Shown one piece after another: positions 2,390 to 5,584 of a stretch of 64,000 nt of DNA. A program made the position numbers and the translations under genes. Origin of the DNA: Planctomycetota bacterium. GTDB lineage: Bacteria; Planctomycetota; Phycisphaerae; Phycisphaerales; UBA1924. The number at the start of each line of letters is the position of its first letter. Within the stretch, counting starts at the first letter, position 1. The stretch is taken from NCBI GenBank assembly GCA_033763975.1, contig JANRJM010000018.1, forward strand, positions 62,001-126,000. Direction: 5' to 3'. The notes below the pieces were generated by a model. That model was not told where the DNA came from. It was given only the letters and a program-made list of their open reading frames with translations, and did no database searches.

Positions 2390-2770
2390 TCAGACCTGGA
2401 AGCTGCTGCCGCAGCCGCAGGTGCCCGAGGCGTTGGGGTTGTTGAAGACGAACCCGCGTCCCATGATCTCGTCGCGGAAGTCCACGGTGACCCCGTTGAG
2501 GTACAGCAGGCTCTTGGGGTCGCAGATGACCGTCACGCCGTGTTGGACCGACACTTCGTCGGTGTCCTTCTGGGTCTCGGTGAGGTCGAGCAGGTACTGA
2601 AAGCCCGAGCACCCCCCGCCCCGAACGCCGACGCGGAGGCGGACGGCCTCCTTGTTCAGCTCCTGTTCCTCGATGATCCGGTGGATCTCCTTCGCCGCCA
2701 ACTCCGTCAGCACGATGCCCGTCTGCTGGGTGGCGTCCTGCGTCTGCGGTTCGGTGGTGTGCGTGGCCAT
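2390..2770 (-). CDS. iscA: HesB/IscA/ErpA-family iron-sulfur carrier
   Basis: A 126-residue A-type carrier. The three conserved cysteines are present: C54 in GGGCSGFQY and C118/C120 in GTCGCGSSF. An N-terminal extension of about 18 Thr/Gln-rich residues precedes the family core. The protein accepts Fe-S clusters from the IscU scaffold and delivers them to target proteins. It lies 60 bases downstream of iscU in the same direction and completes a minimal isc set. The E. coli subtype (ErpA or IscA) cannot be assigned with certainty. Confidence 0.9.
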   Translation of the reverse strand: MATHTTEPQTQDATQQTGIVLTELAAKEIHRIIEEQELNKEAVRLRVGVRGGGCSGFQYLLDLTETQKDTDEVSVQHGVTVICDPKSLLYLNGVTVDFRDEIMGRGFVFNNPNASGTCGCGSSFQV

Positions 2771-2830
2771 GGGTTTCCCTGAGAAAAGTCGAACTGCTCA
2801 AACAAATTACGATCGGGGCGTGGCGACGGT

Positions 2831-3259
2831 TCAGGCCGAGGCGCCGGAGGGCGAGGCGGTCGTCTGGGCGTTCTTGGCCTTGTAGTCCTCGATGGCGGCC
2901 CGGATGGCGTCCTCGGCCAGGACCGAGCAGTGGATCTTGACCGGCGGGAGGCTGAGTTCCTCGACGATCATGGTGTTGCGGATCTCGGCGGCCTGGTCGA
3001 CGGTGCGGCCCTTCAGCCACTCGGTGGCGAGCGAGGACGACGCGATGGCCGACCCGCAGCCGAAGGTCTTGAACTTGGCGTCCTCGATGACGCCCTGGTC
3101 GTTGACCTTGATCTGCAGTTGCATGACGTCGCCGCACTCGGGCGCGCCGACGAGGCCGACGCCGATGTCCTTGCGCGTCTTGATCTCGGCGCTGGTGCCG
3201 AAGTTGCCGACGTTTCGCGGGCGCTCGTAGTGATCAATGATCTTGGGGCCGTACGCCAT
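2831..3259 (-). CDS. iscU: iron-sulfur cluster scaffold IscU
   Basis: A 142-residue scaffold protein on which Fe-S clusters are assembled from iron and IscS-derived sulfur. The three ligand cysteines are present (C42 in APECGDVM, C68 in FGCGSAIASS, C111 in KIHCSVLAEDAI), as is the conserved Asp44. LPPVK at 104-108 is the motif that the HscA chaperone recognises, although no hscA or hscB is seen here. The tail after residue 128 is a short low-complexity Ala/Ser/Thr stretch. The ribosome site GGAGG, 5 bases before the ATG, lies inside a perfect palindrome that abuts the octamer array. Confidence 0.95.
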   Translation of the reverse strand: MAYGPKIIDHYERPRNVGNFGTSAEIKTRKDIGVGLVGAPECGDVMQLQIKVNDQGVIEDAKFKTFGCGSAIASSSLATEWLKGRTVDQAAEIRNTMIVEELSLPPVKIHCSVLAEDAIRAAIEDYKAKNAQTTASPSGASA

Positions 3260-3263
3260 GAGA

Positions 3264-3275
3264 GCCTCCGGAGGC
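3264..3275. repeat. 12-bp perfect palindrome holding the iscU ribosome site
   Basis: GCCTCCGGAGGC reads the same on both strands. On the minus strand its GGAGG is the Shine-Dalgarno sequence of iscU. It directly abuts the octamer array that begins at 3279, so it could be an insertion target, a translation control element, or coincidence. Confidence 0.6.
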
Positions 3276-3278
3276 GAA

Positions 3279-3332
3279 TGGTCAAATGGTCAAATGGTCA
3301 AATGGTCAAATGGTCAAATGGTCAAATGGTCA
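3279..3332. repeat. octamer tandem array, left flank of the four-helix-bundle gene
   Basis: Six complete copies of TGGTCAAA run head to tail from 3279 to 3326, followed by a partial copy ending at 3332. The array ends 6 bases before the stop codon of the leftward four-helix-bundle gene. It is the inverse of the right-hand array at 3798-3825, whose unit on the opposite strand is TGGGCAAA, one base different. Confidence 0.95.
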
Positions 3333-3338
3333 CGTGGT

Positions 3339-3767
3339 TCAGGGGGCGACATCCGGGTTGGGGGTGACGGGCAGGGCGATCGATACCCGAGGAAGCCGGG
3401 ATCTTCGCCGCGGATCGGTCTTGTTCAGAATGGTCCCGAGGATGAGCTTGATCTCCGCGAGTTCGAGGAGCAACGGTTGGAGGCGTGAGTCGGGGATCCA
3501 GGCGCGCCGAACGACGAGGCGCAGCCAGAATCGGGTTTCGGCGAGTTCTTTCGCGGCGATCGCGAGGCACTTGCGGAAGTCCTTGTCGCTCATTGCCTGG
3601 TCCGCTTCGGCGCAGTTCGCGCCCACCGAGCAGGCGGCCGCGGCGAGCTGTTCGGCGAGTCGCGCGAAGCGACCTTCGGCCGCGAGCTGCTCCGCGACCG
3701 CCACGGCGCGATCCGCGAACGCTTCGGTTCGCTCGAGAAACTCCGCTCTCAGCCGACCCTTGCTCAC
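3339..3767 (-). CDS. four-helix-bundle protein (23S rRNA intervening-sequence / S23 family)
   Basis: A 142-residue helical protein of the family first found inside 23S rRNA intervening sequences; the fold is also that of the Avd accessory protein of diversity-generating retroelements. Family marks are AEQLAAAACSVGANCAEA, then SDKDFRKCLAIAAKELAE and TRFWLRLV. The start is a GTG at 3767 with only a weak ribosome site. The stop falls at the edge of the left octamer array, and the last 28 residues (Arg/Pro-rich) are not part of the family core. No reverse transcriptase or rRNA lies nearby. The gene sits between iscS and iscU, where it has no expected metabolic role. Its molecular function is not known. 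Confidence 0.8.
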   Translation of the reverse strand: MSKGRLRAEFLERTEAFADRAVAVAEQLAAEGRFARLAEQLAAAACSVGANCAEADQAMSDKDFRKCLAIAAKELAETRFWLRLVVRRAWIPDSRLQPLLLELAEIKLILGTILNKTDPRRRSRLPRVSIALPVTPNPDVAP

Positions 3768-3797
3768 CCCGCGTGCACTCCCGTCTCATTCTGCCGC

Positions 3798-3825
3798 ATT
3801 TGCCCATTTGCCCATTTGCCCATTT
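3798..3825. repeat. octamer tandem array, right flank of the four-helix-bundle gene
   Basis: Three copies of ATTTGCCC from 3798 to 3821 plus a partial ATTT. On the minus strand the unit is TGGGCAAA, so this array faces the one at 3279-3332 in inverted orientation with one mismatch per octamer. It lies just downstream of the iscS stop codon. Confidence 0.9.
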
Positions 3826-3827
3826 TT

Positions 3828-5066
3828 CTAATGGTGCCCCCACTCGACCTTGCTCAGGTCGATGCCTTCCTTGTGCATGTCGTAGAGGGGCGACATCTCG
3901 CGGAGCCTGCGGACGGCCGCGATGATGAGCTCGGCCGCGGTGTCGACCTGCTCGCGCGTGGTCCACTTGCCCATGCTGAGGCGCAGCGACGAGTGCGCGA
4001 GTTCGTCCGACAGGTCGAGGGCCTTGAGGACGTAGCTGGGCTCCAGGCTGGCGCTGGTGCAGGCCGAGCCCGACGAGCACGCGATCTCCTTGACGGCCAT
4101 CATGAGGCCCTCGCCCTCGACGAAGCCGAAGGAGATGTTCGCGAGGTGGGGGAGGCGCTTCGTGGGGTGCCCGTTCACCTGGCACGAGTCGAGCGCGCCG
4201 GTGACGAGGCGCTCGAGGTGCGTGCGGAGTTCGAGCAGGCGGGTGGCGTCGCGGTCCATCTCGGCGCGGGCGATCTCGCAGGCCTTGCCCATGCCGACGA
4301 TGCCGGTGACGTTGAGGGTGCCGGAGCGGAAGCCGCGTTCCTGCCCGCCGCCGTCGACGAGCGGGGTGAGGCGCACGCGGGGCTTGCGACGCCGGACGTA
4401 GAGCACGCCCACGCCCTTGGGCCCGTAGATCTTGTGCCCGCTGAAGGAGAGCAGGTCGACGTTGTCGCGCTCGACATCAACGGGCATCTTGCCGGCCCAC
4501 TGCGTCGCGTCGGTGTGGAGAAGCACGCCCTTCTCGTGGCAGAGCGCCCCGATCTGCGGGATCTCGTTGATCGTGCCGATCTCGTTGTTCGCCCACATCA
4601 CGGAGACCAGGATCGTGTCCGGGCGCAGGGCGGCGCGGACGGCGTCGGCGGTGATGATGCCGTCGGGCCCGGGCTCCAGGAACGTGACCTCGTACCCCTC
4701 GCGCTGCAGGCGCTTGCAGGGGTCGAGGACCGCCTTGTGCTCGATCAGCCCGGTGACGATGTGCCCGCGTCCGGTCGAGCCCGCGGGCGCCCGCTCGTAC
4801 ATCTGGGCGACGCCGCGGATGGCGAGGTTGTTGGACTCGGTCGCGCCGGAGGTGAAGAGGATCTCTTTCTCGTCGGCGCCGAGCAAGGCGGCCACCTGGG
4901 CGCGGGCCATGTCCACGCCCTCTTCCGCCTCCCAGCCGAACTGATGATTGCGGCTTCCGGGGTTGCCGAACTTCGCGGTGAAGTAGGGCAGCATGGCCTC
5001 GACCACGCGCGGATCGCACGGTGTGGTCGCGGCGTGGTCCAAGTAGATTCGGGGGGACGTCGCCAT
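3828..5066 (-). CDS. iscS: cysteine desulfurase IscS
   Basis: A 412-residue PLP enzyme that removes sulfur from cysteine and hands it to IscU and other acceptors. It aligns end to end with E. coli-type Isc[10 protein letters not shown] at the N-terminus, catalytic His110 in LIEHKAV, PLP lysine K212 in [11 protein letters not shown], the mobile sulfur-carrying cysteine C336 in [14 protein letters not shown], and a C-terminus close to [13 protein letters not shown]...EWGHH. The ATG at 5066 is preferred over a GTG at 5072 because that GTG is part of the GAGGTG ribosome site. iscU and iscA lie downstream but are separated from it by the repeat-flanked four-helix-bundle gene. Confidence 0.95.
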
Positions 5067-5082
5067 AAGCACCTCGCCTCTG

Positions 5083-5100
5083 AGTCTTAGTCTCAGTCTA
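5083..5100. repeat. short hexamer repeat AGTCTN x3 before iscS
   Basis: AGTCT occurs at 5083, 5089 and 5095, spaced exactly six bases apart, in the 38-base gap between the ATPase gene and iscS. On the minus strand the unit is NAGACT. It could be a protein-binding site or a chance simple repeat. Confidence 0.55.
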
Positions 5101-5104
5101 GGCT

Positions 5105-5584
5105 TTAGATGCTCGGCGAGTTCGAGATTCCGCCGACATCGGCGGGGCGTTGGTAGACCATCCGCAGGGCGTTGCCCTTCGCGTTGTACTCCGCGCTGGC
5201 CATGTACGCCCGGATAAGCAGCAGCCCGCGGCCTGACCCGCGTTCCAGGTTCTCATCGGCGGTGGGATCGGGCACGGCGCCGGGGTCAAAGCCGGGGCCC
5301 TGGTCTTCGACGAGGATCTCCACGCGTTCGGCGGAGACGTCGTAACGGAGGCTGATGGGCGTGTGGGGTGGGAGGTTGCGGTGCCCGTGGCGGAAGGCGT
5401 TGCTGATCGCCTCGTGCAGGCACAGGCGGACGGCGAAGACAGATGCCTTGGGGAACGAGAAGGCGGCGAGGGCGTCCAGAACGCGTTCCTCGGCCTTGCC
5501 GATCGCGCCGGGATCGTGCGGCACGTCAAGCGCCGCCCGGAGGTGCTGTCCGCCCGAGGGGGGAGTCATGGCGTGGGTGATCAC
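5105..5584 (-). CDS. anti-sigma-factor-type serine kinase (RsbW/SpoIIAB-like ATPase)
   Basis: A 159-residue GHKL ATPase of the single-domain anti-sigma type. The N box is [13 protein letters not shown], the G1 box [10 protein letters not shown], and the G2 box [13 protein letters not shown]. In the known switch, such kinases phosphorylate a STAS-domain antagonist and bind a sigma factor or other partner. Here the STAS partner is encoded immediately upstream and the start GTG overlaps its stop (GTGA), which implies coupling; an ATG at 5569 is the alternative. No sigma factor or PP2C phosphatase lies next to it, so the output is unknown. Confidence 0.85.

Follow-up and report, generated by a model that had tools for sequence, protein, structure and literature searches.

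Genes of the S23p/IVP family lie between inverted arrays of 7- or 8-nt repeats, in the iscS-iscU spacer of a planctomycete and elsewhere

In the samples that we took, most genes of the S23p/IVP family (IVP genes) are bracketed by inverted arrays of short tandem units, 7 or 8 nt long and of constant strand polarity. Computation established this architecture, its generality in those samples, its operon sense and the different states, with gene, gene-less and empty, in which the iscS-iscU site occurs among relatives of one planctomycete. Our reading, to which we assign a probability of about 70%, is that gene and arrays form a long-lived intercistronic element of the kind known from 23S rRNA intervening sequences (IVSs), whose arms fold in the mRNA and are probably recognised by the element's own ring-forming protein.

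The window, by which we mean the whole 64,000-nt stretch of DNA analysed, belongs to a genome (G000) of 3.27 Mb in 19 contigs that is about 97% complete. The sequence-only reading had described a gene of S23/IVP type between inverted octamer arrays in the iscS-iscU spacer, and this locus is real, as judged from profile matches, array coordinates and shuffled sequences. Its features are the following:

2831..3259, minus strand: iscU, the downstream host gene (TIGR01999, 202.3 bits, cut-off 192.4)
3260..3269, minus strand: probable Shine-Dalgarno stretch of iscU, adjoining the 3' arm (by eye)
3279..3332, plus strand: 3' arm, inverted, with TGGTCAAA six times in full (3279-3326) and then part of a seventh copy (sequence, pattern search, fold)
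3339..3767, minus strand: IVP gene of the S23-type four-helix-bundle kind, 142 aa, GTG start (PF05635, TIGR02436, 2rld, AlphaFold, Foldseek, pN/pS)
3799..3822, minus strand: 5' arm as read in the sense of the gene, with TGGGCAAA three times (sequence, pattern search)
3828..5072, minus strand: iscS, the upstream host gene (NF010611, 602.5 bits, cut-off 548)

The order is thus iscS, IVP gene, iscU, all on the minus strand in one operon sense, and the aligned 5' arm starts 5 nt past the first base of the iscS stop codon. The unit TGGNCAAATGGNCAAA, with at most one mismatch, had 7 matches in the 64-kb window and 0 in 100 shuffles, and a thresholded scan for arrays of period 7 or 8 found in the window only the two arms and a low-complexity stretch at 2251-2279, with 0 arrays in 5 Markov simulations. 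The latter stretch, short, C-rich and of period 7, adjoins a gene of the IscA/ErpA type. When the 578-nt element stretch was folded as RNA, the arms paired in the MFE structure and also in the centroid; the fold as a whole barely surpassed shuffled sequences (z -1.35, with 9/100 shuffles equally stable), probably because the ORF is GC-rich. An Rfam scan of 2700-5200 gave no rRNA match and two matches far below their gathering scores, which ruled out a known RNA family for the element.

The bracketed gene belongs to the family by both profiles (PF05635, 59.7 bits with a cut-off of 33.8; TIGR02436, 73.4 bits with a cut-off of 24), PF05635 being its sole Pfam match at E 0.001. The AlphaFold model (pLDDT 84) is an antiparallel bundle of four helices, a search with the protein matched 2rld at E 1.1e-11, and Foldseek gave a TMt of 0.88-0.92 for 2rld; the nearest structures, 2rld and 2gsc, are entries of 5 chains each; a Xanthomonas protein of the family is a homopentamer according to the available text of PMC4990558, in which S23p/IVP proteins figure as long known and without assigned function. 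Comparison with five orthologues gave pN of 0.20-0.22 and pS of 0.53-0.76, values that indicate that the protein evolves under purifying selection. When the consensus of its relatives was searched, the best 14 named matches were all planctomycetes, from which we take the genome to be planctomycete. A consensus IVP matched no phage record, viral contigs gave 61 pattern matches, 0 of them confirmed as relatives of the window's IVP, and phage carriage was set aside.

PF05635 is described as kin to Avd in the part of PMC10053308 available to us, and the window protein shows this kinship by profile (NF033474, E 1.2e-4, 22.4 bits, below the cut-off of 80) and by Foldseek (E 0.21 for 4dwl and 0.25 for 8ub7, a DGR complex, at a probability of 1.00 each). 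Such a likeness in fold and family would suit an element that moves via RNA, with the IVP as the Avd-like partner of a reverse transcriptase. We regard this as very improbable: RVT_1, the mark of the reverse transcriptase that defines a DGR, had no match in G000, and it had none in 59 of the 74 IVP-bearing genomes, with no association between the two (p 0.81), a count to be read knowing that RVT_1 may miss some reverse transcriptases. Mobility dependent on a reverse transcriptase, of the Avd/DGR type, was rejected on this absence of association.

Next, we asked how general the arms are. The IVP samples consisted of the best matches by score (30 loci per search; among 538 named relatives, the best 80) together with another 80 family loci picked by hand from the score-ranked list, so that weaker IVPs are under-represented. 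From 238 located loci, 231 with distinct DNA, we retained 226 with usable flanks, having left out 7 with identical DNA and 5 with flanks shorter than 120 nt; the family and named sets may include one organism twice where its DNA differs slightly. Inverted arms with an IR score of at least 30 were present at 166/226 IVP genes, compared with 11/226 in the direct-orientation control, and 60/226 had no arm above the threshold. The excess appeared in the family sample (99/126 inverted, 1/126 direct), the phylum sample (18/28 and 5/28) and the named genomes (49/72 and 5/72), while control windows elsewhere in the named loci reached this score in 2/432 cases. A separate count, with the 95th percentile of mismatched upstream/downstream pairs as threshold, agreed (35/43, 22/27 and 55/79 inverted versus 2, 5 and 5 direct in three sets, with 2, 3 and 1 loci omitted for short flanks). 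The combination of gene and inverted arrays is wider than first noted, and its named hosts include Planctomycetota, Bacteroidota, Desulfobacterota, Verrucomicrobiota, Clostridia and Patescibacteria, the phylum being assigned by record title or, for some, by genus.

The arms share a strict organization. Among the 158 elements with an IR score of at least 30 and arms of at least 20 nt, 133 had a clear period, of 7 nt in 76, 8 nt in 56 and 9 nt in 1, with a median of 4.5 units per arm, and shuffled arms had no preference for a 7- or 8-nt period. The 5' arm contained more G than C in 147/158 elements and the reverse in 6. Both neighbours lay on the same strand in 36 of the 40 evaluable named IVP loci (other adjacent ORF pairs, 82/109), a count for which 42 of the 80 named loci were tried, mostly of AT-rich hosts, with GC-rich planctomycete and some other loci left out.

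The 23S rRNA IVSs with an S23p/IVP ORF (Coxiella, Leptospira and others) are the nearest known relatives, as the sequence-only reading had proposed, and the parallel is well supported: a common protein family, complementary ends around the ORF, a sense-oriented place in a transcript spacer, empty and gene-less versions of the site and, as far as the accessible text of PMC4990558 goes, tandem heptamers ahead of S23p in the Coxiella IVS, which has complementary ends and is cut by RNase III. The window element shares the complementary ends and differs in location, since it lies in an mRNA spacer (iscS-iscU) and not in 23S rRNA, and in its unit of 8 nt. The same text holds that the Coxiella S23p is probably not made and is expendable, which argues against the protein being of general importance to such elements.

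RAYT/REPIN systems also comprise a gene bracketed by inverted cognate repeats together with gene-less copies. The likeness ends there: the gene bracketed in the window is not a transposase, the repeats are arrays of units and not one palindrome, and the Y1_Tnp genes of the same genomes mostly carry other repeats. A non-autonomous DNA element on whose hairpin a Y1 transposase (IS200/IS605 or RAYT-like) acts in trans, with the IVP as an accessory, would accord with the presence of Y1_Tnp in 93 of 120 family genomes with IVP being found in 65/93 genomes that have it versus 9/27 that do not (p 0.0013; with one genome per genus, p 0.0019), and with the 8-nt array stretches near one (L367) of 20 inspected Y1_Tnp loci. 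We nevertheless judge it improbable. That association may mirror no more than genomes rich in elements, Y1_Tnp has no match in 9 of the genomes with IVP, and 16 of the 20 inspected loci had inverted ends scoring at least 30 (direct, 6/20) that by eye were mostly GC-rich and REP-like and not 7/8-nt arrays. A RAYT origin of the arrays was discarded because the Y1_Tnp genes mostly have REP-like ends of their own. In these planctomycete loci (L366-L385) the GC-rich REP-like inverted ends often carry GTAGCCACGGGTGGAGC.

The iscS-iscU spacer could be followed through the family. IscU was found in 131/150 family genomes, and 110 of the 131 iscS-iscU spacers were examined: an IVP element occupies 8, an array hairpin lacking a gene 24 and another gene pair 4, with no array hairpin detected in the remainder. 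Of the 98 spacers with neither IVP nor gene pair, the hairpin test covered the 72 that reach 50 nt (the other 26 are shorter). Shuffles peaked at 23 in that test; 25 spacers scored at least 26, all of them array hairpins except G021, a plain GC hairpin without arrays. Five further spacers (G026, G045, G091, G095, G126) have array-like units by eye and no partner above threshold. The comparison with empty sites proposed from the sequence alone showed gene-less and empty versions at the same site. The IVP matches at isc (G000, G001, G004, G055, G067, G037, G090, G039) are all in operon sense, those of G090 and G039 look decayed, and the gene-less hairpin of G054 has intact arms around what by eye is an apparent remnant of the IVP C-terminus. 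The other gene pair, a HEPN-like one, is a different insert of about 700 bp that occupies the spacer at four loci (L141, L052, L163, L129, in G015, G129, G077 and G088) and has no repeat arms that we could see; in G077 its HEPN-like gene matches PF05168 at 18.7 bits, short of the 22-bit cut-off, while its other small gene matches no Pfam profile.

We used a larger IVP tree, because the tree of isc-type IVPs alone is poorly resolved. On it, the six isc-site IVPs form one clade (85/95), and because they do, the simplest history suggested by the sequences is one old gain followed by many losses and not recent hopping. The proposed mobility of the element accordingly finds support on the evolutionary time scale only. 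No recent insertion with clean edges, such as would reveal a target-site duplication, came to light.

The idea that the arrays pair and loop out the gene fared well in part. In 30 array hairpins of this site (24 gene-less, 6 with IVP), the distance from stop to start outside the hairpin is 8-45 nt (median 23.5) in spacers of 92-585 bp; the 73 remaining iscS-iscU spacers have a median of 63 nt. Arms paired better with their own partner than with that of a sister genome in 13 CAAA hairpins (37 versus 26, p 9e-5) and in the 6 isc IVP elements (44.5 versus 26, p 0.014). Together with the fold of the window element, these two groups speak for looping-out, and the third group, 9 GGCACTA hairpins, speaks against it, as their own arms pair no better than sister-genome arms (38 versus 36, p 0.19). 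Gene-less isc hairpins strongly resemble the arms of their own genome's IVP in 3/12 genomes only (combined p 0.035).

We then compared arms with proteins. Arm similarity tracks IVP similarity (Mantel r 0.33 across 164 elements, against at most 0.11 in 2000 permutations), a correlation that is in part shared descent; between elements of one genome it was 0.35 (77 pairs). Covariation beyond shared descent is supported by three results. Units of the CAAA-N4-5-AAA form occur in 8/11 isc-type elements with arms and in 6/153 others, and the isc-type clade has CAAA-type arms at several loci; a wider HMM definition of the clade (21 members) takes in a four-member side branch with other arms (L295, L303, L304, L321). 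The nearest IVP of at most 65% identity predicts the unit length in 75% of cases versus 51% when shuffled, and in 70% at or below 60% identity, the signal being lost at or below 55% (54%, p 0.25). Finally, at the dcd-nrdJ site within one genus, the IVPs of G000, G001 and G004 belong to one clade and have CGGCATT-type arms, and that of G006 belongs to a second clade and has AAGGCATC-type arms, so that each of the two clades retains its own arm type, a comparison that rests on the IVP arms and the nrdJ neighbourhood. This spacer is a second recurrent home of IVP genes (L001 and 25 other family loci), 26 of the 128 family IVPs adjoining nrdJ. They require at least 6 changes on the tree, but its starred branches would also be compatible with one origin.

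Arrays also occur apart from the gene. G000 has four IVP genes, each with its own kind of inverted ends by eye, the weakest being those on contig C6 (L002), where in one test the direct score was 38 and the inverted 32. The octamer arrays of the window recur at four further G000 sites at which no IVP gene was seen, and seven stretches of period 7 or 8, two pairs of them adjacent, lie in 400 kb of G000 with no inverted partner scoring above 25 within 700 nt (G000:C1:51401-51493, 76944-76990, 76993-77053, 96980-97034 and 150044-150075; G000:C13:363339-363368 and 363382-363421). Arrays unrelated to the gene elsewhere in the genome had been named as evidence against the element, and this objection is in part borne out by the octamer sites without IVP and the partnerless stretches. 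The array at G000:C1:51401-51493 is about 400 bp from a Y1_Tnp gene. Slippage, which would make the arrays its products with an incidental link to IVP, draws on such gene-free stretches; we give it hardly any credence in view of the inverted partner, the fixed polarity, the covariation with the protein and the orientation and window controls for inverted arms.

Across the family, arrays of the CAAATGGC type (at most 2 mismatches) were found in 38/120 genomes, with 0 control matches. IVP was present in 32/38 of these genomes and in 42/82 others (p 0.0005) and, when kinship was handled by taking one genome per genus, in 17/19 and 30/55 (p 0.006); a PF05635 match was absent in 6/38, including G103 with its 57 array matches. 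At one of the G000 sites (G000:C9:31698-31761, L008), a same-orientation run of TGGTCAAA/TGGGCAAA, that is, a CAAATGG array in which no inverted partner was seen, abuts the apparent RBS of a groEL-like gene (named by eye). This arrangement, the enrichment of IVP in array genomes, purifying selection on the protein and the presence of IVP in several genera at both iscS-iscU and dcd-nrdJ could also be understood if a domesticated RNA-binding IVP were a host regulator, its arrays being binding sites in an autoregulatory leader and the gene-less arrays near start codons its targets in trans. We consider such a role unlikely, but less so than the other alternatives, given the patchy distribution (8/110 iscS-iscU spacers), host genes that are functionally unrelated (isc, nrd, cas, plasmid genes) and an arm sequence that varies widely among genomes at one site.

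Under the reading that we prefer, that of a long-lived intercistronic element, the IVP gene and the inverted arrays of short units around it (8 nt here, 7 or 8 nt generally), which sit in sense orientation in the iscS-iscU spacer, make up the element, and its arms of about 30-40 nt, whose pairing is computed, would in the cell pair within the isc mRNA and loop the gene out. By calculated distance, the hairpin would leave no more than about 30 nt from the iscS stop to the iscU start, and iscU translation should hence suffer little from the insert. The IVP, of which a solved relative forms a five-membered ring, most likely recognises the repeat units in the arms of its own element, as we infer from the covariation of arms with clades, the constant polarity and the strict unit length. 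By analogy with 23S rRNA IVSs, cleavage of the hairpin by RNase III is a likely processing step. Such elements would be rarely acquired, would persist long in certain operon spacers and would decay by loss of the gene to array hairpins, the gene-less hairpins being presumably relics or copies mobilised in trans.

Repeats of this kind have been described before. The available sections of PMC2670836 report cyanobacterial hairpins of STRRs (short tandemly repeated repetitive sequences) between hupS and hupL, usually of 7-bp repeats, for which transcript stability or translational coupling was suggested, and those of PMC4679880 report TAACTGA heptamers of Beggiatoaceae near start codons, with the binding protein left unidentified; in 7006 prokaryotic genomes surveyed, tandem heptamers were most abundant in intergenic regions, with no clear functional clue in the text available (PMC6344855). 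STRR and TAACTGA repeats resemble our elements in the tandem 7-nt units (present in 76 of the 133 elements with a clear period), in the hairpins between operon genes, predicted ones here, and in the proposed translational coupling; the window element differs in its octamer unit and in bearing a gene. The accessible text of PMC2670836 and PMC4679880 makes no tie to IVP/S23p genes, and in the open-access literature that we searched we met no report of inverted 7/8-nt arms at IVP genes.

Inverted heptamers like those of STRRs bracket cyanobacterial IVP genes. Of the 46 plasmid records with an IVP match (40 cyanobacterial by count of the listing), we fetched 15, among which H1 and H2 are near-identical sister plasmids. 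Inverted arms scoring at least 30 flank the gene at 10/15 of these loci and consist of STRR-kind heptamers such as CAGGGAA and TTAGCTT, with a direct-orientation score that is high too in two of the ten (L441, L450); the other five had no arm over the threshold. Both sides were on the same strand in 11/14 annotated loci, the cas6-cas4 and cas10-cmr3 settings among them.

TRAP reads triplets. In a similar manner, and as a tentative proposal that we would not yet back as the likelier outcome, IVP/S23p could be the missing partner of the STRR heptamers, a five-membered ring that would place one 7- or 8-nt unit of single-stranded RNA or DNA on each subunit, with different clades reading different units; gene-less STRR hairpins would then be non-autonomous or decayed kin, and the 23S rRNA IVS a branch that entered rRNA. 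Two old puzzles, proteins of the S23p/IVP family without a function and scattered 7- and 8-nt repeats, may in this way be joined and such repeats perhaps explained. The link of IVP and arms across phyla pairs a candidate protein with a candidate nucleic-acid site, a prediction that is testable in the laboratory, and it would widen the 23S rRNA IVSs to a class of elements living in operon spacers, in some cases next to CRISPR or plasmid TraM-domain genes. Three plasmid IVP genes (L440, L441, L445) lie among CRISPR genes, twice between cas6 and cas4 and once between cas10 and a Cmr3-family gene, and one plasmid IVP element adjoins a TraM-domain gene.
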